From assembly GCF_015679265.1 (NCBI RefSeq), contig NZ_CP064942.1, forward strand, positions 1,458,001-1,522,000: a DNA stretch of 64,000 nucleotides. The letters run 5' to 3'. The stretch's first letter is position 1, and every line of letters begins with the position of its first letter. The notes below the pieces were generated by a model that had not been told where the DNA came from, ran no database searches, and saw nothing but the letters and a program-made list of their open reading frames with translations. A program made the translations under genes and the position numbers. Origin of the DNA: Pontivivens ytuae (GTDB lineage Bacteria > Pseudomonadota > Alphaproteobacteria > Rhodobacterales > Rhodobacteraceae). This document shows positions 1,458 to 15,094 of the stretch, piece after piece.

Positions 1458-2921
1458 TCAGGCCGTGGCAGGCACGGTGGCGTGGCTAAACTCCATCGTT
1501 CCGTCCTGGATCGGATCCATGCGGAAGGCGCGCAGGTCGAGAAGGTAGTTCTGGTGGACCCGCCAGGGCCGCGTCTGCGCCTGTTTCGGCAGGTGCTCCA
1601 GCGCGCGCTGGATGTAGCCGGAGGTGAGCGGAACGGCCGGTTCGGCGCTCGCATCCTGTGGCGGGCGAGGCGTGGCGATGTCGGTGCCGGTCTTTTCCAT
1701 GTGGTCGAGCAGGCGGATGGCCCAGCGCAGGACGAGCTCGCATTTCAGCGTCCAGCTCGCGTTGGTGTAGCCGAAGGTCATCACGAAGTTCGGTACGTCC
1801 GACAGCATCGCGCCCTTGTAGCTGAGATGGCTGCCGGGATGCACCGCGTGCCCGCCGACGGTGACCCGCATGCCGCCCGCGAGCTTCATGCGCAGGCCGG
1901 TGGCGGTGACGATGATATCGGCCTCCACCAGCTCGCCGGAGACGAGGCGCACGCCTGCAGGCTCGAACCGCTCCACCGCGCCGGTGGTGATGGAGGCGGA
2001 GCCGTCCTTCAGAACCTCGAAGAAATCGCCGTCGGGTGCGAGGCAGAGCCGCTGGTCCCACGGCTTGTAGGGCGGGTCGAAATGGGTGGGGTCGGCCCCC
2101 GATTTCTTCACCACGTTCTTCGACAGCATGCCGCGGACGAGGGACGGCCAGCGTTGGGAGAGCTGGAAGAAGCCCATGCCCATCAGGATGTTCTTCCACC
2201 GCGTGACGGTGTGCGCCGCCTGTTCGGGCAGCACGCGGGAAAAGAAGCGGGCCATGCCGTCGCGGGCGGGCATGTCGGTCACGTAGGTCGGCGTGCGCTG
2301 GATCTGGGTGACGTGCGCGGCTGTCTTCGCCAGCTCCGGCATCAGCGTGACGGCGGTCGCACCCGAGCCGATGACGGCGACGCGCTTGCCGGTCCAGTCG
2401 AGATCCTCGGGCCAGTGCTGGGGGTGGATGATCGGGCCTGCGAAGTCCTCCTGCCCGGCGAAGACGGGGGCGTGGCCGCCCGCATAGTCGTAGTAGCCGG
2501 TGCAGATCATCAGGAAGCGCGTGGCGAGCTGCCGCGTGCCCTCCGGCGTCTCGACCGTGAGCTGCCAGCGGGCACCGTCCCAGTCGGCGGCGGTGACGCG
2601 GTGCTGATAGCGGATGCGCTCATCCACGCCGTAGGCCACCGCCGTTTCCCGGATATAGGCGTTGATCGACGGCCCGTCGGTGATCGCCTTCTCTCCCAGC
2701 CAGGGGCGGAAGGAGTAGCCCAGCGTATGCATGTCGCTGTCCGAGCGGATGCCGGGATAGCGGAAGTAGTCCCACGTGCCGCCCATCGCCTCGCGCGCCT
2801 CCAGCAAGGCGATGCGATCATCGGGGCGCTTCTCGGCCATCAGGCAGGCCGCGCCGATGCCGGAGAGGCCGGCGCCCACGATGATGACGTCGAGGCTGTC
2901 TGGGTCGGTCGTGTCGCGCAT
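1458..2921 (-). CDS. Flavin-containing monooxygenase, Baeyer-Villiger type
   Basis: A 487-residue FAD/NADPH-dependent monooxygenase. The N-terminal FAD-binding motif is GAGLSG (residues 16-21). The Baeyer-Villiger fingerprint FxGxxxHxxxW is present as FAGPIIHPQHW, and it is followed by the NADPH Rossmann motif GSGATA. Enzymes of this family insert oxygen into ketones or oxidise soft heteroatoms; the substrate cannot be read from sequence. The start is supported by AAGGAGG six bases upstream. It follows the deiminase gene on the same strand after a 73-base gap, so co-transcription is possible. The family is well supported, the substrate is not. Confidence 0.88.
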   Translation of the reverse strand: MRDTTDPDSLDVIIVGAGLSGIGAACLMAEKRPDDRIALLEAREAMGGTWDYFRYPGIRSDSDMHTLGYSFRPWLGEKAITDGPSINAYIRETAVAYGVDERIRYQHRVTAADWDGARWQLTVETPEGTRQLATRFLMICTGYYDYAGGHAPVFAGQEDFAGPIIHPQHWPEDLDWTGKRVAVIGSGATAVTLMPELAKTAAHVTQIQRTPTYVTDMPARDGMARFFSRVLPEQAAHTVTRWKNILMGMGFFQLSQRWPSLVRGMLSKNVVKKSGADPTHFDPPYKPWDQRLCLAPDGDFFEVLKDGSASITTGAVERFEPAGVRLVSGELVEADIIVTATGLRMKLAGGMRVTVGGHAVHPGSHLSYKGAMLSDVPNFVMTFGYTNASWTLKCELVLRWAIRLLDHMEKTGTDIATPRPPQDASAEPAVPLTSGYIQRALEHLPKQAQTRPWRVHQNYLLDLRAFRMDPIQDGTMEFSHATVPATA

Positions 2922-2994
2922 TGGATCCTCCTTGCCGGGAGTTTATCGGGCTGTACTGCCAGGGGCGAGGGAACGCTGCGTCAGCCGCGGCTTA

Positions 2995-4080
2995 TCACAC
3001 CGCAGGCTGCTGCTGTGTGGCGCAGTGGATGCCGCCACCGATCCAGCCGAGCGCGTCGGCATCGAGAGCGACGACCTCCCGCCCTGGGTGGAGTACGGCG
3101 ATGGCCTGCTGCGCGGCGGCGTCGGCCTCCGCATCGCCGAAGCGCGCCATGATGACCGCACCGTTGCAGACATAGTAGTTGACGTAGGAGGCGAGGAACT
3201 CCGCATCGTGCACCCGGGGGCGTGCGGGGTCCTGGATCTCCGTCAGCCGGAGCGGGCGACCCGCCACATCGATCGCGGCAGCGAGGATGTCGCGGGTTTC
3301 GCGGGCGGTTCGCAGCCACGGATCGGAGGGATCGTCCTCAGCCGGCATCTGGATCAGCACTTCGCCCGGCGCGGTGAAGCGGGCGAGCGCGTCGATGTGA
3401 TAGTCCGTGATGTCCTGCCCCGCGAGGCCGGGCGCCCAGATCATCCGATCCGCGCCATAGGCGTCGAGGAGCAGCGCCTCGACCTCGGCCAGGCTGCCCG
3501 GGTTGCGGTTGGGGTTCACCCAGGAGCTTTCATGGGCGATCAGGGTGCCCGCACCATCCTGCTCCACCCCGCCGGGCTCCCCGACGAGGCCGTTGTCGAG
3601 GAGCGGGAGCGCCATCCGCTCGGCCACGCGGCAGGCGATCTCGCCGTCGTTGGGATGGCGCTGCTTGCCGCCCCAACCGTTGAAGTTGACATGCCGGATC
3701 GCGAGGTCGCCGGTGCCGTCCACCACGAAGAGCGGACCGCTGTCGCGGGCCCAGAGGTCGTCAGTGGGGATATCCCAGAGGGTCACCGCGTCCGTGACCT
3801 GCGGGGCGATGGCCGCATGATGCTCGGCCGCGGCAAGCAGGACCACCGGCTCAAACGCCGCGATGGTATTGGCGAGCGTGGCGATGGTATGCTGGACCTC
3901 GTCGAGGAACCAGCGCTCGGGGTAGACGGTGCGGTCCACGGGCCACTGAAGGAAGGTACGCTCGTGCGGTGTGTCTTCAGCCGGGACATACCAGCGTCCG
4001 GTCGGCTGGCCGGTTGCGCGTGAGGTGAAGGAGGCCGCGGCGGTGCCCGCGAGCGCTGCCAGAACGTGACGTCGCATCAT
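2995..4080 (-). CDS. Agmatine deiminase/peptidylarginine deiminase family protein, exported
   Basis: A 361-residue protein of the agmatine deiminase fold (PF04371), guanidine-modifying enzymes that convert agmatine to N-carbamoylputrescine. Visible motifs are WARDSGP near residue 110 and the C-terminal nucleophile loop GGGIHCATQQQP. The N-terminus MMRRHVLAALAG looks like a twin-arginine or Sec signal, which is unusual because classical AguA is cytoplasmic. I chose the start at 4080 because AAAGGAA lies seven bases upstream; a longer start at 4131 has no such site. A periplasmic role in using external agmatine or arginine-like compounds is inference. Confidence 0.82.
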   Translation of the reverse strand: MMRRHVLAALAGTAAASFTSRATGQPTGRWYVPAEDTPHERTFLQWPVDRTVYPERWFLDEVQHTIATLANTIAAFEPVVLLAAAEHHAAIAPQVTDAVTLWDIPTDDLWARDSGPLFVVDGTGDLAIRHVNFNGWGGKQRHPNDGEIACRVAERMALPLLDNGLVGEPGGVEQDGAGTLIAHESSWVNPNRNPGSLAEVEALLLDAYGADRMIWAPGLAGQDITDYHIDALARFTAPGEVLIQMPAEDDPSDPWLRTARETRDILAAAIDVAGRPLRLTEIQDPARPRVHDAEFLASYVNYYVCNGAVIMARFGDAEADAAAQQAIAVLHPGREVVALDADALGWIGGGIHCATQQQPAV

Positions 4081-4331
4081 CAGAATGTTCCTTTCTTTTG
4101 AGCGCGTACCGTGGCGATTGCGCCCTGACAACCGTCCTCGATATGGGTTCGAAGGCGCCGGATGGTGAGAGGGAGCGGCGATGTGATCTGCCGCTCCGCA
4201 ACCTGGCTATGCGCGCCTTTCATCCGGCGTTCATGTTCCTGCCCGCGCCGTTTTAATCCCGCGTCGGCTATGGGCTTCAAGGGAGGCTGGCAGGGTGGTG
4301 GCATGGAAACGAACGGGCCTTGGAGGGCGAC
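4081..4331. other. Divergent promoter region
   Basis: A 251-base gap between the minus-strand deiminase gene and the plus-strand P-loop gene; it must contain both promoters. I see no confident -35/-10 pair. A TTCAT pair spaced exactly 11 bases apart (4219 and 4230) is weakly reminiscent of the phased repeats near the response-regulator gene further on, but it is too short to call. Confidence 0.35.
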
Positions 4332-5399
4332 ATGACCATCAACACCACCTTCTTCGACATGACGCGGCTGGAGCGGGCGAAGTGGGCCTTTACCACCCGG
4401 CGGGTGGCGCGCGGCGATGTGCGGGGTGTGAGCGCCGATCTGACCGACGCGCAGCCGGGTGACCTGATCCTCTGCGAGATCGTGGAGATCGGGCAGCACA
4501 AGAAGATCCAGCTCGCCGACCGGCGCAATGCGGCGAGCTATCCGGGCGATCTCGTGGTGCTGTGCCTTGGCGATCGTTATGCGCCGGATCAGTTCATGGC
4601 GCGCGCGGTCGTCGTCGGCGAGGTGGCGCATCTCGCGGCGGGCGGCGGTGTCGTCGGCACCGTGGAGGCGGCGCATGACCGGATGGATGCGCCGACCACC
4701 CTGCGCCCCCTCGGCGTGCTGATCGACGAGGCGGGGGCGCGGCTCAACATCGGGGCTTACGCGCTGCAGCCGATGAGCGCGCCGGAGGATGTGACGGTGA
4801 TCGGCGTCTTCGGCGCCTCGATGAACTCGGGCAAGACCACCGCGGCCTCCAGCCTCGCTCACGGGTTGCAGCGGGCGGGCTATGCGACGGTGGGGGTGAA
4901 GGCGACGGGCACGGGCGCCTTCGGTGACTTCAACGCGTTCGAGGATGCGGGCGTGACCGCGATGGACTTCTCGGATGCGGGCATGGCCACGACCTTCCGC
5001 ATGCCGCTGGAGCGGATCGAGGCGGGGTTCGAGACACTGATCGGCCATGCCGCTGCGGGCGGGGCGCAGGTCGTGGTGGTGGAGATCGCCGACGGTGTCT
5101 TCCAGCGGGAGACGCGGGCGATCCTTGCCGGGTCCCGCATCCGGCGGCGGCTCGACGGGATCCTGTTCGCGGCGCCGGACGCGCTGAGTGCGCTGGGCGG
5201 AACCATGGTGCTGGAGCGGCACGGGCTCACGCCCTTCGCCATCTCGGGCATGGTCACGTGCTCCCCGCTCGCGCGGGCGGAGGCGGAGGAGGTCACGGGC
5301 CTGCCGCTTCTCGCGCGTGAGGATCTGTGGTCGGCGGAGGTGATCGAGCAGGTCGTCGCCCCCTTGATGCGAAACCGCGTGGGCCAGCGCGCGGCATGA
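4332..5399 (+). CDS. P-loop NTPase of unknown function, first gene of a pseudo-ABC/two-component cluster
   Basis: A 355-residue protein with a perfect Walker A, GASMNSGKTT (residues 161-170), in the middle of the chain. It has a later acidic strand ending VVVEIADG and an FQRET motif, like SIMIBI-class NTPases such as the DUF1611, MobB and BioD groups. The first 150 residues form a separate beta-rich domain I do not recognise. The ATG at 4332 is preferred over the in-frame TTG at 4320 because GGAGGG lies four bases upstream. The stop overlaps the next start as ATGA, so the two proteins are probably made in fixed ratio. Its biochemical role is unknown. Because the ABC-like partner lacks its own ATPase motifs, this protein could be the nucleotide-using partner; that is inference only. 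Confidence 0.75.
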   Translation: MTINTTFFDMTRLERAKWAFTTRRVARGDVRGVSADLTDAQPGDLILCEIVEIGQHKKIQLADRRNAASYPGDLVVLCLGDRYAPDQFMARAVVVGEVAHLAAGGGVVGTVEAAHDRMDAPTTLRPLGVLIDEAGARLNIGAYALQPMSAPEDVTVIGVFGASMNSGKTTAASSLAHGLQRAGYATVGVKATGTGAFGDFNAFEDAGVTAMDFSDAGMATTFRMPLERIEAGFETLIGHAAAGGAQVVVVEIADGVFQRETRAILAGSRIRRRLDGILFAAPDALSALGGTMVLERHGLTPFAISGMVTCSPLARAEAEEVTGLPLLAREDLWSAEVIEQVVAPLMRNRVGQRAA

Positions 5400-6982
5400 G
5401 CCGGCTCCCGCGGCTCTGGTCTGGGGACCGTGTCGGTGACGCGGTCCTCATTCCCGTTCTCGGCATCGCGCAGGCCGTGGCGATGGGCATCGGCGCCTTC
5501 GCCACGCGCGATGCGTTCACGGCCCTGCATGGCGGCGGCCCGCCGACCGACGGAACGCTCGCCACGCTGATCCTCGCAGGGCTCGCCACGGCGGGCTTTG
5601 CGTTGTTGGCGGGGATCCGGTCGGAGGCGCTTGGCCAGAGCGTCGCGCGCGAGATGCGGGTGGTGCTCTACGATCACCTCGCGGGCATGTCGCGGCGGGA
5701 TGTGGAGGCGCGCAGGCTCGGCGCGCTGTCCCTGCGCTTCGTAGGCGATCTGTCGGCGGTGCGGCTGTGGTACGGGCGCGGGCTGCCGCGCGTGGCCTCG
5801 GCCCTCGTGGTGCTGCCCGGCGCGGGCCTAGTTCTGTGGCTGCTGGAGCCGCAGATCGCGGGCGCGGCCATCCCGCCCGTGGCGCTGTCGCTGGTGGTGA
5901 TGCTGGTCGCCGCCGTCGGATTGCAGGCGCGGCACCGGCGGCTGCGGTCGCGGCGGGCGGGGATATCCATTGCGATGATGGAGCGGATCGCGGTGTCGCC
6001 GGAGCTCGACCTGATGGGCCGCACCGGTTTTGAGCTGAAGCGGTTGGAGGAGGACGGCGCGACGCTGCGGCGCAACGCCGTCTCCCGCCGTTGGCAGCAG
6101 GAGGCGCTGCGCATGATCCCGCAGGGCGGCGCGGCGGTGGCGGGCGCGGCGGTGCTCTGGATGGCCGGCATGCAGCAGATCGCGCCGGGGACCGCGGCGG
6201 CGGGGCTGTCGGTGCTCGCCATCCTGATCCTGCCGCTGCGCGAGCTTGCCGACGCGTGGGACCAGTATTGCGCCTGGCGGATCGCGCGGGAGAAAGCGTT
6301 GAACCTGCTGGCAAAACCCAGCGTCCGACGCAGTGCGCGGCATCGCGGCCATCCGGTCCGGCTGCGCGCGACCGGGATGCTGGAGGGGCGGCCCCTCGAC
6401 GTGGAAATCGTGGCGGGGACCGCGGCGCGGATGGCGCGGCGGGCGGGGGTGGCCCACCTCGCCGCCGCGTTCGCGGGACTCGACCCCGATCCGGCGCTGC
6501 ACATCCGCTATGACGGGCGCACCACCCTGCCCCGCGTCGCCCATATCGGCGACCGGCCCGTGGTCTTGCAGGGCACGCTGCACCGGGCGCTGACGCTGGG
6601 CCTTGCCCCGCGGCCGGGGCGGAAGGAGACGGCGAAGGTCGCGCGGGCCTTCGGCCTCGCCCCCCTCCTCAAGCGGACCGGGGGGCTGAAGGGCAAGGTG
6701 GCCGAAGCCGGGCGCGACGTGACGGTGGCCGAGAGCCTGCGTCTCGACCTCGCGCGAGCGATGCTGGCGGAGCCGGATGTCGTCGTGATCGACAGCGCGC
6801 GCTTCGACGCGGATCCGGAGCGGGGGGCGCTGCTCACCCGGCTTCGGGCGCGGACGGAGGCGACGGTGCTGGTCGTCGGCCCGGCGGCGGAGGGCTTTGT
6901 CTTCGACCGTGAGATCGACCTAAAATTGAATGAAGCAACACCCTCTCCCGCGGTCGCCGATTCGGCTGCGGCATCGTTCTAA
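5396..6982 (+). CDS. ABC exporter-like membrane protein with degenerate nucleotide-binding domain
   Basis: A 528-residue protein laid out like a type IV ABC exporter half-transporter. About 300 residues of transmembrane domain (hydrophobic helices near residues 15-35, 55-75, 140-160, 163-185 and 240-290) precede a C-terminal domain that aligns by pattern with an ABC ATPase. The ATPase motifs are lost: the Walker A position reads AGTAARMARRAG, the signature reads VTVAES instead of LSGGQ, Walker B reads VVVIDS with no catalytic Glu, and the switch His region reads VLVVGP. The Q-loop-like VVLQGTL survives. It overlaps the upstream P-loop gene and precedes a sensor kinase gene by nine bases. ATP hydrolysis by this protein is unlikely; a sensory or scaffold role, or reliance on a partner ATPase, is inference. 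Confidence 0.8.
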   Translation: MSRLPRLWSGDRVGDAVLIPVLGIAQAVAMGIGAFATRDAFTALHGGGPPTDGTLATLILAGLATAGFALLAGIRSEALGQSVAREMRVVLYDHLAGMSRRDVEARRLGALSLRFVGDLSAVRLWYGRGLPRVASALVVLPGAGLVLWLLEPQIAGAAIPPVALSLVVMLVAAVGLQARHRRLRSRRAGISIAMMERIAVSPELDLMGRTGFELKRLEEDGATLRRNAVSRRWQQEALRMIPQGGAAVAGAAVLWMAGMQQIAPGTAAAGLSVLAILILPLRELADAWDQYCAWRIAREKALNLLAKPSVRRSARHRGHPVRLRATGMLEGRPLDVEIVAGTAARMARRAGVAHLAAAFAGLDPDPALHIRYDGRTTLPRVAHIGDRPVVLQGTLHRALTLGLAPRPGRKETAKVARAFGLAPLLKRTGGLKGKVAEAGRDVTVAESLRLDLARAMLAEPDVVVIDSARFDADPERGALLTRLRARTEATVLVVGPAAEGFVFDREIDLKLNEATPSPAVADSAAASF

Positions 6983-6991
6983 GGTTCGCCC

Positions 6992-8575
6992 ATGCGTGTC
7001 TCGACCCTGCTGATCGCCTATGCCTTTCTGTTCGTGACGCTGACCCTCGGCAGTGCCGCCATGGCGATCTGGACCACGGAACGCGGGCGGATGCTGGAGG
7101 AGCGGATCGAGCTCGCCGAGCAGTCCTACCACGCGCACCTCTCGCTGCAGTCCAACATCTACCAGCTCTTCAAGCAGCACGGCGACGCGCTGATCATCGG
7201 CGACCGGGACAACGGCGCGCTGGAGGCGGTGATCCAGGACGCGATCGGGCGTGACATCCAGCTCATCCGCGACACGATCGGGCGGGAGATCGAGCTCGTC
7301 GGCGAGGAGGAGATCGAGGAGCTCGCCCGGCTCGCCGAGATCGAGCGCAGGGTGAACACGGTGACGGTCGCGCTGACCCGGATTTCGAGCGGAGAGGCGG
7401 GATCGGACCAGGCGCGGTTACGCGCGCAGCTCGTCGACATCCTCGACCGGGAGGTCGACATCCAGATCGCCCAGCTCATCAGCGAGGCCTTGGCCGAGGA
7501 GGAGGAAGAGGTCGCCGAGACGCTGGTCGAGGCCGCCGCGTTCCGGGACCGGGTCCAGATCGCCGCCGTCGCCGTGGGCTTGGTGGCGGCCATCGCGCTC
7601 GGCTACGCGATCTGGACCTTCAACCGCTACCTGCGCCGTCCGATCCTGGCATTGAGCGAGGGGGTGCGGGCCTACGAGGCGGAACGCTTCGACCAGGACA
7701 TCAAGGTGCGCGGCGGGCGGGAGTTCGAGAATCTCGGCGCGCTGCTCACCAACATGGCGCGCAAGCTGCGCCAGCGGCAGCTCAGCCAGAAGGAGCTGAA
7801 CGAGCGGCTGGAGACCGAGGTCGCTGGCCGCACGCGGGAGCTGGAAAAGCTGCTGCGCCAGTTCGAGATCTCGGAGGCGAACCGGCGGCGGCTGATGGCC
7901 GATATCAGCCACGAGCTGCGCACGCCGCTGACCATCATCCAGGGCGAGGCGGAGGTGACGCTGCGCGGCGGACCGCAGGAGGCGGAGACCTACATGGAGG
8001 CGCTGTCGCGCATCCGCGACTCGGCCAAGCACACCAACCGGATCGTGGACGACATGCTGCTGGTCGCCCGGCAGGAGGCGGACGAGCTGCGGCTCGACCT
8101 GCGCGACGTGGACCTGATGGCCGTGATTGACGATGCGCGCGGGCTGTTTCCGGGGGCTGTGCGGCTCGACAGCGGGCTGACCTCCCTGCGCATCCGCGGG
8201 GACGAGATGCGGATGCGCCAGTGCCTGCTCGCCCTCTTCAACAATGCCGCGCGCTATGGCGGGCCGGACATCGTGGTGCGTGCCTTCCACGAGGGGGGCC
8301 GCGCCATCGTCACGGTCGAGGATAACGGCTCGGGTCTGACCGATATCGAGAAGTCGCAGGCCTTCGACCGGTTCTATCGCGGCTCGAACGCGTCGGGCGT
8401 GACCGGAGAGGGCACGGGCCTCGGTCTTCCCATCGTGCGCGCCATCGTGAAGGCCCATGGCGGGGACGTCGAACTGGAGGACGGGCGGGAGGGCGGCCTG
8501 CGAGTCGCGATGAGCTTCCCCACTCCGCGGGCGGGCATCCGGCTGGTGCCCGGAGCGGCCTCGGACAGCGCATAA
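6992..8575 (+). CDS. Sensor histidine kinase with periplasmic helical sensor and HAMP domain
   Basis: A 527-residue membrane histidine kinase. TM1 covers about residues 4-26, a charged and strongly helical periplasmic segment about 27-185, and TM2 about 190-210. A HAMP domain follows (RRPILALSEG onward), then a coiled coil. The H-box DISHELRTPL has the phosphoacceptor His at residue 307. The N-box is NNAARYG, and the G-boxes are EDNGSG and GTGLGLPIV. It follows the pseudo-ABC gene by nine bases and is followed after 184 bases by its likely partner regulator. The helical sensor may detect a membrane or protein signal, perhaps the ABC-like protein; that is inference. Confidence 0.92.
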   Translation: MRVSTLLIAYAFLFVTLTLGSAAMAIWTTERGRMLEERIELAEQSYHAHLSLQSNIYQLFKQHGDALIIGDRDNGALEAVIQDAIGRDIQLIRDTIGREIELVGEEEIEELARLAEIERRVNTVTVALTRISSGEAGSDQARLRAQLVDILDREVDIQIAQLISEALAEEEEEVAETLVEAAAFRDRVQIAAVAVGLVAAIALGYAIWTFNRYLRRPILALSEGVRAYEAERFDQDIKVRGGREFENLGALLTNMARKLRQRQLSQKELNERLETEVAGRTRELEKLLRQFEISEANRRRLMADISHELRTPLTIIQGEAEVTLRGGPQEAETYMEALSRIRDSAKHTNRIVDDMLLVARQEADELRLDLRDVDLMAVIDDARGLFPGAVRLDSGLTSLRIRGDEMRMRQCLLALFNNAARYGGPDIVVRAFHEGGRAIVTVEDNGSGLTDIEKSQAFDRFYRGSNASGVTGEGTGLGLPIVRAIVKAHGGDVELEDGREGGLRVAMSFPTPRAGIRLVPGAASDSA

Positions 8576-8644
8576 ACCTTCTATAAACCCGCCATCAACC
8601 AAAGGCCGATCCGGCATAAACCCGGCGCAGAACGGCGCTGAACC
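8572..8644. promoter_or_regulatory. Phased ATAAACC repeats, candidate response-regulator operator
   Basis: Between kinase and regulator genes, ATAAACC occurs at 8572, 8583 and 8616, ATCAACC at 8594, and CTGAACC at 8638. All are at multiples of 11 bases. Read on the minus strand this gives GGTTTA-N5-GGTTTA, the layout of the enterobacterial PhoP box and of direct-repeat sites bound by OmpR-family dimers. The first copy overlaps the kinase stop codon. It is a good candidate for autoregulation of the downstream regulator gene. Confidence 0.6.
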
Positions 8645-8759
8645 AAATGACGAGGGCTCTCGGACCTTGGTCGCGACCTTTTCGTTTCACCGCGTGGATG
8701 ATGGCCCTCCGCCTCCCCAAATGCTGTTTGCCCCTCAACAAAAGCAGCGAGGTGCGACG

Positions 8760-9431
8760 ATGAATGTCCTTCTGATCGAAGACGAGATGCGGGTGGCGAA
8801 CTTCATCCGCCGCGGGTTGAGCGCCGAGGGCTGGACGGTCCAGCACGCCCCCGACGGCGAGACGGGGGTGGAGATGCTCGCCCAGGGCAAGGTCGACGTC
8901 ATCGTGCTCGACCTCATGCTGCCGGGGATCAGCGGGCAGGACGTCTGCCGAAAGCTCAGGATGCGGCGGGACCCCACGCCGATCCTGATGCTCAGCGCCC
9001 TCGACAGCGCGGAGGAGCGGACGAGCGGGCTGAGGATCGGCGCCGACGACTACCTGCCCAAGCCCTTCGACTTCGACGAGCTGATCGCGCGGATCGAGGC
9101 GTTGCACCGCCGGGCCACCGCCTTCGACGGGCGCGTGGATACGGAGGTGGTGGATTGCGGCCGCATCACCTTCGACCGCCGCTCGCACATCATGAAGGTG
9201 GACGAGGCCCCGCTGGAGCTGTCGGCCAAGGAGCGGGAGGTGCTGCTCTTCTTCATGTCCAATCCGGGGCGGGTGCTCTCGCGCGAGCGGATCCTCAACG
9301 CAGTCTGGAGCATCAACGAGGATCCGATGACCAACGTCGTGGACGTCTATGTCGGGCGGCTGCGCAAGAAACTGGGCGAGCAGGGCCGGCGGATCGTGAC
9401 CTTGCGCAACGTCGGCTACCGCTTCGAGTGA
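8760..9431 (+). CDS. OmpR/PhoB-family response regulator
   Basis: A 223-residue two-component regulator. The receiver domain has acidic residues in IEDE (7-9), phosphoacceptor Asp51 in VLDLMLPG, Ser79 and Lys101 in LPKPFD. The C-terminal winged helix carries the family hallmarks LSAKEREVL, VDVYVGRLRKK and the final VGYRF. The start at 8760 is chosen because the receiver domain begins there (MNVLLIEDE) and a GAGGT precedes it; an upstream in-frame start at 8667 would add 31 non-homologous residues and run through the leader. It is the likely partner of the kinase upstream and may bind the phased repeats in its own leader. Confidence 0.93.
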   Translation: MNVLLIEDEMRVANFIRRGLSAEGWTVQHAPDGETGVEMLAQGKVDVIVLDLMLPGISGQDVCRKLRMRRDPTPILMLSALDSAEERTSGLRIGADDYLPKPFDFDELIARIEALHRRATAFDGRVDTEVVDCGRITFDRRSHIMKVDEAPLELSAKEREVLLFFMSNPGRVLSRERILNAVWSINEDPMTNVVDVYVGRLRKKLGEQGRRIVTLRNVGYRFE

Positions 9432-9488: not shown

Positions 9489-10271
9489 ATGAGCATCGAA
9501 AGCCCCATGTTCTCTCTCACCGGGAAGCGGGCGCTGGTCGTGGGCATCGCCAACGACCACTCCATCGCCTATGGCTGCGCGAAGGCGCTGCGCGCGCAGG
9601 GTGCGGACCTTGCCATCACCTATCTCAACGCGAAGGCCGAGCCGCATGTGCGCCCGCTGGCCGAGGCGCTGGGGGCCGAACTGATCCTGCCGATGGATGC
9701 GAGCGACGACGCGCAGATGGATGCGGTCTTTGCCGCGATCACGGAGCAGTGGGGCGCGCTCGACGTGCTGGTGCATTCCATCGCGTACTGTCCGAAGGAG
9801 GACCTGCACGGGCGGGTCGTCGACTGCTCACGCGAGGGGTTCGTTGTCGCGATGGACACCTCCGTCCACTCCTTCCTGCGGATGATCCGGCGGGCGGAGC
9901 CGCTGATGCCGAACGGCGGGACTTGCATGACGGTGAGCTTCTACGGCTCGGAAAAAGTCGTCGACCACTACAACATCATGGGTCCGGTGAAGGCCGCGCT
10001 GGAGAGCGTGACGCGCTATGCCGCCGCCGAGCTGGGGCCCAAGGGCATCTCCGTCCACGCCCTGTCGCCCGGTCCGATGAAGACGCGGGCCGCGAGCGGG
10101 ATCGGCCATTTCGACGAGCTGATGGAGCAGACGGCGGCGCGCACGCCCACGCACCAGCTCGCCACCATCGACGATGTCGGCGCCTATGCAGCGTTCCTCG
10201 CCAGTCGCGAGGCCGCGAACGTGACCGGTGCCGTGCACCCCATCGACGGCGGCTACCACGTCGTCGGCTGA
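9489..10271 (+). CDS. fabI: FabI-like enoyl-[acyl-carrier-protein] reductase
   Basis: A 260-residue short-chain dehydrogenase of the FabI type, reducing enoyl-thioesters with NAD(P)H. Features are the atypical nucleotide motif GIANDHSIA near residue 19, the active-site pair Tyr-x6-Lys in YNIMGPVK, and the substrate-loop region SPGPMKT. The gene heads an operon with DUF3141, MaoC-phosphate acyltransferase and acetate kinase, so it may serve short acyl-CoA or hydroxyalkanoate metabolism rather than bulk fatty-acid synthesis. That reassignment is inference. Many alphaproteobacteria carry more than one FabI, so this copy may be secondary. Confidence 0.85.
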   Translation: MSIESPMFSLTGKRALVVGIANDHSIAYGCAKALRAQGADLAITYLNAKAEPHVRPLAEALGAELILPMDASDDAQMDAVFAAITEQWGALDVLVHSIAYCPKEDLHGRVVDCSREGFVVAMDTSVHSFLRMIRRAEPLMPNGGTCMTVSFYGSEKVVDHYNIMGPVKAALESVTRYAAAELGPKGISVHALSPGPMKTRAASGIGHFDELMEQTAARTPTHQLATIDDVGAYAAFLASREAANVTGAVHPIDGGYHVVG

Positions 10272-10287
10272 GACCGGAGTGAAGATC

Positions 10288-12579
10288 ATGAGTGCCCCGC
10301 GCGGACGCGAGTTCAACGACGACAGCCTGAAGCTGCAGGCCGAGCTGATGAAGATGGCGATGGAGCGGCACGCCGCCCGCGCCATGCACGACGCGCAGGC
10401 GCGGCGGTCCCGTACCGGGGAGGCGCTGGAGCGGCTGAAGGCCGAGGCGGCCCCGCAGCCCCCCACCGAGTTCGCGACGGAGCTCGCGAACTACATGCTC
10501 GACAGTTGGCAGCGCGCGTTGCTGACGATGGACGCCCTGCGCAAGCGCGGCGACATCTTCATCGCGCATGAGGATGCGGGCGCGCCGCCGGTGCTGATCT
10601 ACGATTACGAGGTGGTGGTCGATGGCCGCGACCTGCCGCGGCCCTGCAACTACATGCTGCTGGAGATCAAGCCGCCGGAAGGGATCGAGGTCTTCGCGTG
10701 GAAGCGGCCCTACGTGATCATCGATCCGCGCGCAGGTCATGGCCCGGGCATCGGCGGCTTCAAGACCGACAGCCAGGTGGGCGTGGCGCTGCGCGACGGC
10801 CACCCCGTCTACTTCGTGGCGTTCCGCCCGATCCCCGAGCCCGACCAGACCATCGCGGATGTGACCCATGCGGAGGCGGCCTTTCTGCGCGAGGTCCGCG
10901 CGCGCCATCCCGACAGCCCGAAGCCGGTCGTCGTGGGCAACTGCCAGGGCGGCTGGGCGACCGCGATCCTCGCCGCGATGAACCCGGACCTGACCGGGCC
11001 GATCGTGCTGAACGGCGCGCCCATGTCCTACTGGTCAGGCAAGCTGGGGCAGGATCCGATGCGCTATACCGGCGGCATCGCGGGCGGCGTGCTGCCCGCG
11101 CTCATCGCCTCGGACCTCGGCGGCGGGCTCTTCGACGGGGCGCACCTGGTGCTCAATTTCGAAAGCCTCAATCCCGGCCGCACGTGGTTTCGCAAGTATT
11201 ACGACCTCTACCGCGGCGTCGACACCGGCGAGGCGCGGTTCCTGGAGTTCGAGAAGTGGTGGGGCGGCTTCTACCTGATGAACGAGGCGGAGATCCGGTG
11301 GATCGTCGAGAACCTCTTCGTCGGCAATCGCCTCGGCCGCAACGAGGCGCGGCTGGAGACGGGGCGCCCGATCGACCCCAAGGCGATCCGCGCACCGATC
11401 ATCGTCTTCGCCAGCCACGGCGACAACATCACCCCGCCTGGCCAGGCGCTGAACTGGATCGTCGACACCTACGCCAACGAGCGGGAGATCGAGATCCGCG
11501 GCCAGCGCATCCTCTACATGGTGCATGACGAGGTGGGGCATCTGGGGATCTTCGTCTCCTCCTCCGTGGCCAAGCGCGAGCACACGCAGATGGCCTCCAC
11601 CCTCAAGACGATCGAGGCGCTGCCGCCGGGCCTCTACGAGATGCGGATCGAGGATCAGCAGGGCGAGGGGCACGAGAAGACCTTCGCCGTGAGCTTCGCC
11701 CGGCGGCAGTTCGAGGATCTGCTGACTGAAACCGGCGGGCGGCGGGAGGAGCGGGCCTTCGCCGCCGTCGCCCGGCTGTCGGAGAACCTCGCCGAGGCCT
11801 ATGACACGACGGTCCGGCCGATGGTGCGCGCCTCCGTCACGCCGCGGGCGGCGGTTCTGGCCCGGCAGCTCCATCCGCTGCGCGCCCAACGCCGGGTCTT
11901 TGCCACCCGCAATCCGGCGATGGGCACGGTGGCGGGCCTCGCCTCCCACGTGCGGGAGAACAGGGTGGCGGCGGGCGAGGACAATCCCTTCGTCATGGCC
12001 GAGCGGCTGTGGGCCGACGCGGTGGAAGCGGGCTGGAACCTGTGGCGGGACAGCTCGGCGGCGATGGCGGAGGCGACGTTCCTCGCCCTCTACGCCCATC
12101 CGCTGGCGCAGTGGTACGGCGCGCCGCGGGCCGACGCGCGGATCCACAAGTCGGAGGCGGAGCTCGACACCCTGCCCGAGATGATGATGGCGCTGGAGCG
12201 CACCGGCCAGGGCGGATTGGGCGAAGCGGTGGTACGGATGCTCGTCCTGCTCGCCGATACCCGCCGGGATGTGCGGCGCGACCGGCTGCAGCGGTCCTCA
12301 GAACTTCTCACGACGCGGCCGCCCTTCGACGCGCTGGACCCGGCCACGCGGACCGAGATGATTCATACGCAGACCCTGATCGTGCGCGCCGATCCCGATG
12401 CGGCCCGCGCCGCCCTGCCGGTGCTGCTGCCCACGCCCGGCATGCGGCGCGCCGCGCTCGACATGGTGCGCTACGTGGTCGGCGACCCGGCGGAGATGGA
12501 GCAGGCGACCCTCGACCTGCTCACCCGGCTGGAGGCAGAGTTGGAGGAGGCAGCGACCATGACGGAGGCCGCGCAATGA
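10288..12579 (+). CDS. DUF3141 protein, PHA-synthase-like alpha/beta hydrolase
   Basis: A 763-residue DUF3141 protein. The first 400 residues look like a class III-type poly(hydroxyalkanoate) synthase fold. The lipase box is GNCQGG with Cys219 at the nucleophile position (as in PhaC, where it is Cys and not Ser), an Asp follows in SHGDN, and a His in HDEVGHLG. The C-terminal 300 residues are helical and uncharacterised. The start at 10288 matches a GGAG about 10 bases upstream; an in-frame start at 10228 overlaps fabI. It overlaps the next gene by ATGA. A role in transferring or hydrolysing hydroxyacyl chains as part of an acyl-CoA to acyl-phosphate route is plausible but unproven. Confidence 0.82.
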   Translation: MSAPRGREFNDDSLKLQAELMKMAMERHAARAMHDAQARRSRTGEALERLKAEAAPQPPTEFATELANYMLDSWQRALLTMDALRKRGDIFIAHEDAGAPPVLIYDYEVVVDGRDLPRPCNYMLLEIKPPEGIEVFAWKRPYVIIDPRAGHGPGIGGFKTDSQVGVALRDGHPVYFVAFRPIPEPDQTIADVTHAEAAFLREVRARHPDSPKPVVVGNCQGGWATAILAAMNPDLTGPIVLNGAPMSYWSGKLGQDPMRYTGGIAGGVLPALIASDLGGGLFDGAHLVLNFESLNPGRTWFRKYYDLYRGVDTGEARFLEFEKWWGGFYLMNEAEIRWIVENLFVGNRLGRNEARLETGRPIDPKAIRAPIIVFASHGDNITPPGQALNWIVDTYANEREIEIRGQRILYMVHDEVGHLGIFVSSSVAKREHTQMASTLKTIEALPPGLYEMRIEDQQGEGHEKTFAVSFARRQFEDLLTETGGRREERAFAAVARLSENLAEAYDTTVRPMVRASVTPRAAVLARQLHPLRAQRRVFATRNPAMGTVAGLASHVRENRVAAGEDNPFVMAERLWADAVEAGWNLWRDSSAAMAEATFLALYAHPLAQWYGAPRADARIHKSEAELDTLPEMMMALERTGQGGLGEAVVRMLVLLADTRRDVRRDRLQRSSELLTTRPPFDALDPATRTEMIHTQTLIVRADPDAARAALPVLLPTPGMRRAALDMVRYVVGDPAEMEQATLDLLTRLEAELEEAATMTEAAQ

Positions 12580-13958
12580 ACCAGCTCACCAACACCACCT
12601 TCGACGCGCTGGAGGTCGGGATGGAGGCGTCGCTGACGCGGCTCTGCGTGCTCGACGACCTCTATGTCTTCGCCCATGCCTCCGGCAACCTGAACCCGCT
12701 GCACATGCCGGAGGCCGATGGTGACGGCGACGGCACGCCCGAGGCGGTGGCCCCTGCGATGTGGGTCGCCTCTCTGATCTCGGCGGTGCTGGGCAACCGG
12801 CTGCCGGGGCCGGGCACGTTCTACCGCGCACAGAGCCTGAAGTTCCTGGAGCAGGCCCATGCGGGCGACGAACTGACCGCCTGCGTCCGCCTGACCGCCA
12901 AGGGCGAGGGGCGCGAGGTCCGCTTCGACACGTGGGTGACGCGTGCCGACGGTACCACGATCTGCGAGGGCGAGGCGGTGGTCGTCGCTCCTGCCCTCAC
13001 CGTCAGCTTCGACACCGGCGACGTGCCGGGCCTCACCGTGCGCCGGCACGTCCATTTCGACGCGCTCCTGGAGCGGGCGGAACCCCTGCCCCCGATCCCC
13101 ACGGCGGTCGTGGCCCCCGAGAAGGCCGACGCGCTGAACGGGGCACTGCTGGGCGCGCGGCACACGCTCATCACCCCGATCCTGATCGGCGATCGGGAGA
13201 AAATCGCGGCCGCAGCACAGGAGATCGGCGCGGATCTGACGGGCCTCGAAATGCTGCACGAGCCCGACCACGGCGCCGCCGCAGCCATGGCCGTCGCCCT
13301 CGTCCACGAAGGGCGCGCGCGGGCGGTGATGAAGGGGCACCTGCATACGGACCTGCTGCTCCGCCACATCGTGAAGCGCGACGGCGGCCTGCGCGGGACG
13401 CGGCGGCTCAGCCATGTCTTCGTGATGGATGTGCCGGGGCTCAACCACCTGCTGTTGATCTCGGACGCGGCGATCAACATCGCGCCAGACCTCGAATGCA
13501 AGGTCGACATCGTGCAGAACGCCGTCGACCTCGCCCGCGCCATCGGGATCGAGGATCCGAAGGTGGGTGTCCTCTCGGCGGTGGAGACGGTGAACCCGCA
13601 CATCCCCTCCACCCTAGATGCCGCGATCCTGTCGAAGATGGCCGAGCGCGGCCAGATCCGCGGCGCGGTGGTGGACGGGCCGCTCGCCATGGACAACGCG
13701 ATCGACATGGAGGCGGCGCGCACCAAGGGGATCAAGTCACTGGTCGCGGGCCGCGCCGATATCCTGATCGCGCCCAACCTGGAGGCCGGGAACCTCATCG
13801 CGAAGGAGCTCACGTTCCTCGCCCATGCGGAGGCCGGGGGCATCGTGCTCGGCGCGCAGGTTCCGGTGATCCTCAACAGCCGCGCGGATGACGACAAGGC
13901 GCGGCTGGCCTCCTGCGCCGTCGCGGCGCTCTACGCGGAGGCCCAGGCGCGGGGATGA
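12576..13958 (+). CDS. Bifunctional enoyl-CoA hydratase (MaoC-like)/phosphate acyltransferase
   Basis: A 460-residue fusion. Residues 1-150 are a MaoC-like hot-dog hydratase with FAHASGNLNPLH, the catalytic Asp/His motif region here reading SGNLNPLH. Residues 160-460 are a phosphate acetyl/butyryltransferase domain that swaps CoA for phosphate on short acyl groups (for example the GHLHTDLLLR and VDGPLAMDNA motifs). The fusion joins hydration of enoyl-CoA to acyl-phosphate formation and lies directly upstream of acetate kinase (ATGA overlap), completing a substrate-level phosphorylation route. The acyl chain preference is not evident from sequence. Confidence 0.88.
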   Translation: MNQLTNTTFDALEVGMEASLTRLCVLDDLYVFAHASGNLNPLHMPEADGDGDGTPEAVAPAMWVASLISAVLGNRLPGPGTFYRAQSLKFLEQAHAGDELTACVRLTAKGEGREVRFDTWVTRADGTTICEGEAVVVAPALTVSFDTGDVPGLTVRRHVHFDALLERAEPLPPIPTAVVAPEKADALNGALLGARHTLITPILIGDREKIAAAAQEIGADLTGLEMLHEPDHGAAAAMAVALVHEGRARAVMKGHLHTDLLLRHIVKRDGGLRGTRRLSHVFVMDVPGLNHLLLISDAAINIAPDLECKVDIVQNAVDLARAIGIEDPKVGVLSAVETVNPHIPSTLDAAILSKMAERGQIRGAVVDGPLAMDNAIDMEAARTKGIKSLVAGRADILIAPNLEAGNLIAKELTFLAHAEAGGIVLGAQVPVILNSRADDDKARLASCAVAALYAEAQARG

Positions 13959-15094
13959 GCGACGCGATCCTGACGCTGAACGCGGGCTCCTCCTCGCTCA
14001 AATTCTCGGTCTACGCGACGGAGGCACCGCCGGCGCTGCTGATGGTCGGCCAGGTGGAAAACCTCGGGCCATCGGCTCGGCTGAAGGTCGGTGACGAGGT
14101 GCGGGAGATCGGGGCGGCGGACCACACGGTCGCCATCCGCGCGATCCTGGAGACGGCAAGCGCGGTCCTCGCCGGGCGCTCGGTCATCGCCGTCGGCCAC
14201 CGCATCGTGCATGGCGGCGAGGACTATACCGGCCCGGTGCTGCTGACGGCGGAGGTGCGGGAGAAGCTCGCCGCCCTCTCCCCCCTCGCGCCGCTGCACC
14301 AGCCGCACAACCTCGCCGCGGTGGAGGCGGCGCTGACCGCCTTTCCCGACGCGCCGCAGATCGGCTGCTTCGACACCGCGTTCCATCGGGGGCACGACTG
14401 GGCGGCCGACACCTTCGCCCTGCCCCGCCGGTTCTACGAGGAGGGTGTGCGGCGCTACGGCTTTCACGGCCTCTCCTACGACTACATCACCGGCGTCCTG
14501 CGGCGGGAGGAGCCGGAAATCGCGGCGGGCCGCGTGGTCATCGCGCATCTGGGCAACGGCGCATCGATGTGCGCGGTGAAGGGCGGGCGGAGCGTCGCCT
14601 CGACCATGGGGTTTTCAGCGCTGGACGGCCTCGCCATGGGCACCCGCTGCGGGCAGCTGGACCCCGGGGTGCTGCTCTACCTGATGGAGCGGGGCATGAG
14701 CGCGGCGGAGATCACGACGCTGCTCTACAAGGAGAGCGGGCTGAAGGGGCTGTCGGGCATCAGCCACGACATGCGCACGCTGGAGGCGTCCGACGCGCCC
14801 GAGGCCGCGCAGGCCATCGACTACTACACCTTCCGGATCCGGCGGGAACTGGGCGCGCTGACGGCGGTGCTGGGAGGGCTCGACGCGCTGGTGTTCTGCG
14901 GTGGCATCGGGGAGAACTCGAGCACCATCCGCGCGCGGGTCTGCGAGGGGATGGAGTGGCTGGGGATCACGCTCGATCCCGTGGCGAACGGAGCGAATGC
15001 GCGCCGCATCTCCTCCGGTCCCGTCGCGGTGATGGCGATCCCGACCGACGAGGAGCGGGTGATCGCGGAGGCCGCGGTCGCGCATCTGGCCTGA
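13955..15094 (+). CDS. ackA: Acetate/short-chain acid kinase
   Basis: A 379-residue ASKHA-fold kinase that makes ATP and free acid from acyl phosphate. The N-terminal signature NAGSSSLKFS, the FDTAFH motif, the HLGNGAS phosphate loop and the C-terminal GGIGENS are all present, and the length is close to the 400 usual for AckA. It overlaps the phosphate acyltransferase by four bases, so the two probably act in sequence. Butyrate or propionate kinase activity is possible given the operon, but the overall match is to AckA. Confidence 0.9.
   Translation: MSDAILTLNAGSSSLKFSVYATEAPPALLMVGQVENLGPSARLKVGDEVREIGAADHTVAIRAILETASAVLAGRSVIAVGHRIVHGGEDYTGPVLLTAEVREKLAALSPLAPLHQPHNLAAVEAALTAFPDAPQIGCFDTAFHRGHDWAADTFALPRRFYEEGVRRYGFHGLSYDYITGVLRREEPEIAAGRVVIAHLGNGASMCAVKGGRSVASTMGFSALDGLAMGTRCGQLDPGVLLYLMERGMSAAEITTLLYKESGLKGLSGISHDMRTLEASDAPEAAQAIDYYTFRIRRELGALTAVLGGLDALVFCGGIGENSSTIRARVCEGMEWLGITLDPVANGANARRISSGPVAVMAIPTDEERVIAEAAVAHLA

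Follow-up and report, generated by a model that had tools for sequence, protein, structure and literature searches.

Among ATP-binding cassette (ABC) systems, BceAB has a fold different from that of the exporters discussed here and keeps working ATPases, and the BceS-type kinases that go with it have no large sensor domain. Each ABC nucleotide site is composite and needs Walker A and the catalytic Glu of one half together with the signature motif of the other, and the nucleotide-binding domains (NBDs) of exporters are, to our knowledge, regarded as indispensable. The exporter MsRv1273c/72c is described as having one degenerate site (PMC12038006). The alphaproteobacterial regulator CenR of Rhodobacter sphaeroides is described as recognizing TGA-N8-TGA (PMC9275681), and in Salmonella the OB-fold protein VisP, which is under QseBC, is reported to inhibit the lipid A dioxygenase LpxO (PMC5636140). 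Here, we analyzed a four-gene cluster in a 64,000-nucleotide stretch of the Pontivivens ytuae genome (contig NZ_CP064942.1, positions 1,458,001 to 1,522,000; hereafter the window), which encodes a SIMIBI-class P-loop protein, an ABC-exporter homologue, a histidine kinase, and a response regulator. We consider it about 50% probable that the cluster is a two-component-controlled envelope operon, the effector of which would be formed by the SIMIBI nucleoside triphosphatase (NTPase) and an exporter homologue with a pseudo-ATPase.

All four genes lie on the + strand and encode the P-loop protein of 355 amino acids (aa; 4332..5399), the ABC homologue of 528 aa (5396..6982), the kinase of 527 aa (6992..8575), and the regulator of 223 aa, which belongs to the OmpR/PhoB family and starts from the ATG at 8760 (8760..9431). 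An ATGA overlap joins the end of the P-loop gene (5399) to the start of the ABC gene (5396), nine bases separate the latter from the kinase gene, and 184 bases lie between the kinase and regulator genes, confirming the gene set and arrangement given in a preliminary description of the locus.

The ABC homologue consists of six long membrane helices followed by an NBD (residues ~323-507; 6362..6916, + strand). Pfam detects ABC_membrane (E 2.1e-9) and, at E up to 1, no ABC_tran domain; the best NCBIfam matches are CydC and CydD, both far below the cut-off. AGTAARMA is found at the place of Walker A, VTVAES replaces LSGGQ, VVVIDSA stands where Walker B and the catalytic Glu are expected, and the H-loop His was not found in the alignment. 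The predicted model is confident and comprises the whole exporter fold, in which the pseudo-NBD folds as an NBD. Of the features of a working exporter, the transmembrane domain (TMD) and the fold are thus present, whereas Walker A, LSGGQ, the catalytic Glu that follows Walker B, and the H-loop His are all gone, which bears out the earlier claims that this ATPase is dead and that, ahead of the kinase, an intact nucleotide site is left in the P-loop protein alone.

The loss of the ATPase extends well beyond the window. Among the close homologues, taken as the best 120 of 227 matches with the window protein included, none has the catalytic Glu (0/120). Walker A is kept in 46 of them and absent from 74; the Walker B Asp persists in 30 of the latter and is missing as well from the other 44. 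The ABC P-loop is still present in many listed homologues of about 57–61% identity. The wider family was defined as the best 80 of at least 273 confirmed loci in named genomes, plus the window. Using motif states from automatic alignments, 67 ABC proteins were classified (63 by alignment and four, L084, L092, L112, and L113, by eye): 24 are intact (Walker A, Asp, Glu, and H-loop His), 13 are partly dead (Walker A kept; Glu and/or His lost), and 30 lack Walker A. Six ABC fragments (L060, L091, L097, L099, L108, and L111), L076 with its early NBD frame end, five loci without an ABC gene, and two that end too soon were left out. The odd motif sets are Glu without His in L065, L087, and L101, and Glu and His without Walker A in L066. 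On the tree of the P-loop partner, from which rows with an unknown ABC state were dropped, the Walker A state changes nine times, eight of them forced by supported branches, and the intact state changes ten times, six of them forced, although both counts assume that the ABC gene has travelled together with its partner. These figures replace those of a first tree (12 Walker A changes, 10 forced), in which unknown-state rows sat among the groups; judged from the new tree, repeated loss of the ATPase still holds after forced changes fell from 10 to 8. Because the intact state is spread over alphaproteobacteria, Methyloversatilis, gammaproteobacteria, cyanobacteria, and one actinobacterial metagenome-assembled genome, the ancestor was probably a normal exporter that lost its ATPase repeatedly. 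Local decay of one ABC gene, which the preliminary description had tied to intact ABC domains in close homologues, is ruled out by the missing catalytic Glu and the forced Walker A changes. In Novosphingobium taihuense (L108, 8846-10000), the NBD is gone altogether, leaving a TMD-only gene with a stop that overlaps the next gene; alpha/beta hydrolase and porin genes follow.

In contrast to this erosion, the P-loop of the SIMIBI partner is kept alongside ABC proteins that are intact, partly dead, fully dead, or NBD-less. The protein has a beta-rich N-terminal domain (residues ~1-150), which was barely covered by the fold search, and an NTPase domain (~151-351) resembling BioD, HypB, and the signal recognition particle (SRP) NTPase. 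It carries GASMNSGKTT, with Walker A placed by alignment at residues 161-169 (4812..4838, + strand). Profile matches to BioD and MobB are weak, and the scores lie below the curated cut-offs (DUF1611, 14.1 against 25; MobB, 15.9 against 76.2; BioD, 12.1 against 83.3). The model, with a predicted local distance difference test (pLDDT) score of 95, matches SRP, HypB, and BioD, so that by predicted fold the protein is a SIMIBI NTPase with an intact Walker A, as previously assigned, and is expected to bind and hydrolyze nucleoside triphosphates. G161, M164, G167, K168, and T169 are invariant over 89 aligned rows, and the motif is present in all 80 loci and in 119 of 120 proteins among the matches listed.

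The P-loop and ABC genes form a conserved unit that is wider than the quartet. In 73 of 78 readable loci (L070 and L082, which end too soon or are broken, are not counted), the P-loop gene is followed on its own strand, within 3 kb, by an ABC gene; these include L052, where the ABC gene sits behind two other genes, L091 with a weak match, and several cut by a contig end. No ABC gene was found downstream in L053, L054, L055, L085, and L100. A kinase occurs within 6 kb in only 37 of the 80 loci, and the quartet as an ancestral unit is therefore unsupported. Within the family of the source organism, the P-loop protein occurs in 19 of 198 genomes (own genome included; some matches partial or weak), and in three same-genus genomes the ABC protein found no full match, a patchy distribution. 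Other families within 6 kb of the P-loop gene, each named from one representative, are a regulator (36 of 80 loci), alpha/beta hydrolase (38), aspartyl/asparaginyl-hydroxylase family (18), extracytoplasmic-function (ECF) sigma factor (18), anti-sigma factor (17), S8 subtilase (17), EF-hand protein (10), a lipoprotein-like gene named from its sequence (8), and porin O/P (6). The hydroxylase accompanies 13 of 24 intact, 3 of 12 partly dead, and 1 of 26 Walker A-less ABC genes, the loci being related to one another. The alpha/beta hydrolase as a fifth gene gave no match in the own genome in a search run without a positive control.

Further neighbors were noted. The S8 subtilase, ECF sigma, and anti-sigma genes recur as a module (17, 18, and 17 of 80 loci). 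The ECF sigma loci are L052, L061, L062, L065, L066, L067, L069, L079, L080, L081, L083, L084, L085, L086, L090, L091, L108, and L110, of which only L062 and L069 also have a kinase of the window type (defined below); the module is perhaps an alternative control circuit for the pair. In L044, L048, and L057, VTC-domain and DUF4956 (MgtC-like) genes, assigned by a Pfam run on the L044 copies, are divergent from the EF-hand gene and lie at most ~2.3 kb upstream of the P-loop gene, which hints at polyphosphate or divalent-cation physiology. In the window itself, an enoyl-ACP-reductase-like gene (profile search) comes first downstream of the cluster (9489-15094), and then a large alpha/beta-hydrolase-like gene followed by phosphotransacetylase-like and acetate kinase genes, these three named by sequence impression.

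The kinase has HisKA and HATPase_c domains above the Pfam cut-offs and a HAMP match below it, and Pfam finds Response_reg and Trans_reg_C in the regulator; judged by their motifs, the catalytic residues of both look complete. Approximately 200 residues before the HAMP/kinase core form a conserved, acidic, helical sensor region (36 D+E against 20 K+R in the first 215 residues), which may bind cations. Kinases with at least 38% identity over at least 300 aa were regarded as window-type. They are found in 23 of the 80 loci, mostly directly downstream of the pair, which, together with the 37 loci with any kinase nearby, goes partly against the kinase linkage in the preliminary description. The ABC companions of the window-type kinases are intact in eight loci, partly dead in one, and without Walker A in 13, and one locus (L054) has no ABC gene. 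Because the kinase also stands beside fully intact ABC proteins (8/22 readable), the quartet was not built around a dead one. The pair-adjacent kinases of the cyanobacterial loci L094 and L102 do not share the acidic region in the alignment and are not counted as window-type.

A conserved direct-repeat site at the operon promoter tracks the kinase and is the putative binding site of the regulator. In the window, this box is the 11-bp direct repeat TTTCATCCGGCGTTCAT (4218..4234, + strand), starting 114 nt 5' of the P-loop start codon, and GTTCAT-N5-GTTCAT is likewise found upstream of the P-loop gene in close relatives. The distance from the box start to the P-loop gene, with start codons picked by a simple ribosome-site score, is 110-116 nt in the window and 15 relatives and 119-202 nt in 12 others. 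Exact TTCAT-N6-TTCAT within 250 bp upstream on either strand occurs in 19 of 35 kinase- and regulator-linked loci (window included) and in 2 of 46 others; spacers of 3-5 and 7-11 gave at most one linked and no other locus, and shuffles gave approximately zero. When one mismatch is allowed, the box is found in 23 of 24 window-type-kinase loci and in 5 of 57 elsewhere (Fisher 2e-14, ignoring relatedness). Among these five, L053 and L055 have a more distant kinase (28-29%) and the contigs of L060, L070, and L082 end before a kinase. As the box thus occurs almost only with a window-type, more distant, or unread kinase, the operon appears to take its orders from the kinase rather than to feed signals into it. 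Only in L078 does a window-type kinase occur with no box close to the P-loop gene; here, a box with one mismatch lies ~325 nt before the longest kinase frame, which is suggestive only. In Anderseniella (L053 and L055), the box at 7757 (- strand) lies between the kinase/regulator pair and the P-loop gene, with no ABC gene after it. A putative second box of three 11-bp repeats, GTTGATggcggGTTTATagaagGTTTAT, lies on the - strand where the kinase gene ends, ahead of the regulator gene (8572..8599); none of 1000 shuffles was as good (0/1000), which suggests autoregulation.

The box also marks candidate regulon members away from the cluster. Exact TTCAT-N6-TTCAT occurs four times in the own genome, once at the site 114 nt before the P-loop gene; the reversed pattern, a control that was not dinucleotide-matched, occurs once. 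A second site is 115 nt before an aspartyl/asparaginyl-hydroxylase-family gene (PF05118, 64.5 bits) 1.2 Mb away, of the same family as the hydroxylase that accompanies the pair in other genomes and, presumably, as LpxO. Another is 115 nt before a gene for a 107-aa OB-fold protein with a signal-peptide-like start (PF04076, 24.3 bits; cut-off 25.8), and the fourth, at 2027578, falls within a coding frame and was taken as chance. In 15 further genomes, the hydroxylase was found in five, twice inside the cluster, and with both strands of the hydroxylase and OB-fold promoters scanned, a triple 11-bp repeat precedes it in all five (shuffle p ≤0.004), or in 6/6 with the own genome. The same 15 genomes contain 28 exact long-form sites against one for the reversed control. 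In L178, an exact box is followed 40 nt later by the gene of a secreted protein, named by sequence impression, whose start is PepSY-like and whose long tail is rich in Gly and Asn.

On the reading we prefer, the kinase would sense an envelope signal, such as a cation, a polycation, or another envelope stress, through its acidic sensor region and phosphorylate the regulator. The regulator would then bind GTTCAT-N5-GTTCAT ~114 nt before the first gene and induce the operon, and would also induce the hydroxylase gene and, in the own genome, the periplasmic OB-fold gene. The P-loop protein and the exporter-derived membrane protein would act together as the effector unit. Because the P-loop of the SIMIBI protein is kept whatever the state of the ABC partner, this protein most likely carries out the nucleotide-dependent step, together with the ABC-derived protein. 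The latter may act as a channel in the membrane, a receptor, or a scaffold, with its NBD retained as a docking domain. The pair likely functions at the cell envelope, in modification or export, since hydroxylase, hydrolase, lipoprotein, and porin genes travel with it. That the exporter-fold protein was uncoupled from ATP hydrolysis many times as the SIMIBI NTPase of the operon took over its energizing or gating is a more tentative proposal, which we regard as possible with the odds clearly against it.

Several observations weigh against the preferred reading, besides the joint travel assumed in the tree counts and the imperfect reversed-pattern control. The own genome has three one-mismatch long-form sites (614107, 2246290, and 2259637) beyond the named targets and 112 sites at up to two mismatches, so the loose box is not specific. 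The three-repeat score at the window P-loop gene alone is weak (shuffle p 0.037). Only 12 of the 28 exact sites in the further genomes precede the P-loop gene (5) or an EF-hand gene (7), the other 16 being unassigned, and the sites are confined to 11 of the 15 genomes, with none in the remaining 4. The hydroxylase repeats are reversed in orientation in the five other genomes, and none of five OB-fold genes from four other genomes has a repeat at p < 0.05; the box there is confined to the own genome, outside which the OB-fold gene is unsupported as a conserved regulon member. On the protein side, the listed P-loop protein P0052 has Cys in place of the Gly before Lys in the P-loop, and one relative (L016) is truncated at the P-loop. 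The box also resembles the CenR site, so that a different regulator could bind it, and the ABC protein could have a hidden partner half; both points are taken up below.

The preliminary description had proposed a sensing complex, in which the pseudo-ABC and P-loop proteins would sense a ligand or flux and thereby govern the kinase, much as BceAB acts on BceS, with the SIMIBI protein as a nucleotide switch. A receptor role is more readily pictured for a dead transporter than a role as a pump, one kinase subfamily is linked to the pair in 23 of 80 loci, and L053, L054, and L055 keep a kinase/regulator pair beside the P-loop gene with no ABC gene after it. However, the window-type kinase is missing from 57 of 80 relatives and also adjoins intact ABC proteins, the operon bears an apparent box of the regulator itself, and the sizeable sensor region is unlike that of BceS-type kinases; the marks of the BceAB type, a working transporter ATPase and a kinase without a large sensor domain, are both missing here. 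We therefore do not favor the sensing complex and consider it rather unlikely, although a BceAB-like sensing role is possible, as sensing and being regulated are compatible. It is somewhat less likely still that the box is the site of a general envelope regulator, for example CenR, and that the adjacency of the kinase to the P-loop/ABC pair reflects co-regulation only. The reverse complement of the box does satisfy TGA-N8-TGA, a direct repeat with an 11-bp period (PMC9275681), but the box is absent in 52 of 57 pair loci without a window-type kinase, many of them Rhodobacterales.

Two further explanations concern the ABC protein and are both improbable in our view. The dead half might pair with an intact ABC half encoded elsewhere and form a heterodimeric exporter with one working site. 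The solved folds nearest to the model do include the heterodimers CydDC, TmrAB, and MsRv1273c/72c, the last being a precedent with one degenerate site (PMC12038006). Nevertheless, one relative has lost its whole NBD, and a protein search of the own genome found only the query itself (E up to 0.001; a diverged half could escape). The window copy has lost the parts of its own site (Walker A and catalytic Glu) and of the partner site (signature), and by the composite-site rule no whole site could therefore form. Alternatively, the ABC protein may be dispensable and slowly decaying into a pseudogene while the P-loop protein acts alone, consistent with the five of 78 readable loci without a downstream ABC gene, with the faster evolution of the dead NBD relative to the TMD, with the lack of a full ABC match in the same-genus genomes, and with the NBD frame of L076 that ends early. 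Yet the ratio of nonsynonymous to synonymous substitution rates (dN/dS) of the ABC gene is well under 1, G393, L395, and R397 in an LQGSLRR-like segment are invariant across 50 aligned rows, the full exporter fold is confidently predicted, and the lengths of the 120 listed homologues all fall within 492-547 aa, in a search that admitted lengths of 0.55 to 1.75 times the query. The ABC frame of L076 (Rubrimonas, 2655-4967) stops mid-NBD with Walker A present.

The locus is a new combination of known parts, and its ATPase loss is more remarkable than was first appreciated. Repeated loss of the NBD active site (at least eight forced Walker A changes, and the whole NBD once) next to an intact partner NTPase amounts to a natural experiment on what powers or gates an exporter fold. 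The box defines a candidate regulon, which opens signal and function to simple genetics. If the pair were indeed an NTPase-gated channel or a receptor, a mode of action would be added to a very large superfamily. No described set of a SIMIBI NTPase, a pseudo-ABC exporter, and a two-component system was found in the searches made of an open-licence library, in line with the preliminary description.

Compared with known systems, the cluster resembles BceAB-BceRS in that an ABC-type membrane protein adjoins a kinase and an OmpR-type regulator, but the kinase here has its own sensor region and the ABC protein has no nucleotide site. In contrast to CydDC/TmrAB-type exporters, which share the type IV fold, the window copy lacks Walker A, the signature, the catalytic Glu, and the H-loop His, and its conserved genetic partner is a SIMIBI NTPase. 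This NTPase in turn differs from the BioD, MobB, HypB, and SRP NTPases and from TM0796 (2g0t), presumably a DUF1611 protein, by its extra beta-rich N-terminal domain and by profile scores under the DUF1611, BioD, and MobB cut-offs. CenKR of Rhodobacter sphaeroides is likewise described as having an OmpR-family regulator, a direct-repeat site with an 11-bp period, and envelope targets (PMC9275681), whereas the box here is longer, with GTTCAT halves, and tracks the adjacent kinase subfamily. The QseBC-VisP-LpxO axis likewise joins a two-component system to a periplasmic OB-fold (BOF) protein and a dioxygenase, as far as its description goes (PMC5636140), while the hydroxylase here is ~200 aa long and may act on something other than lipid A, and the OB-fold link is confined to the own genome. 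The resemblance to this axis, without being proof, points to envelope modification.

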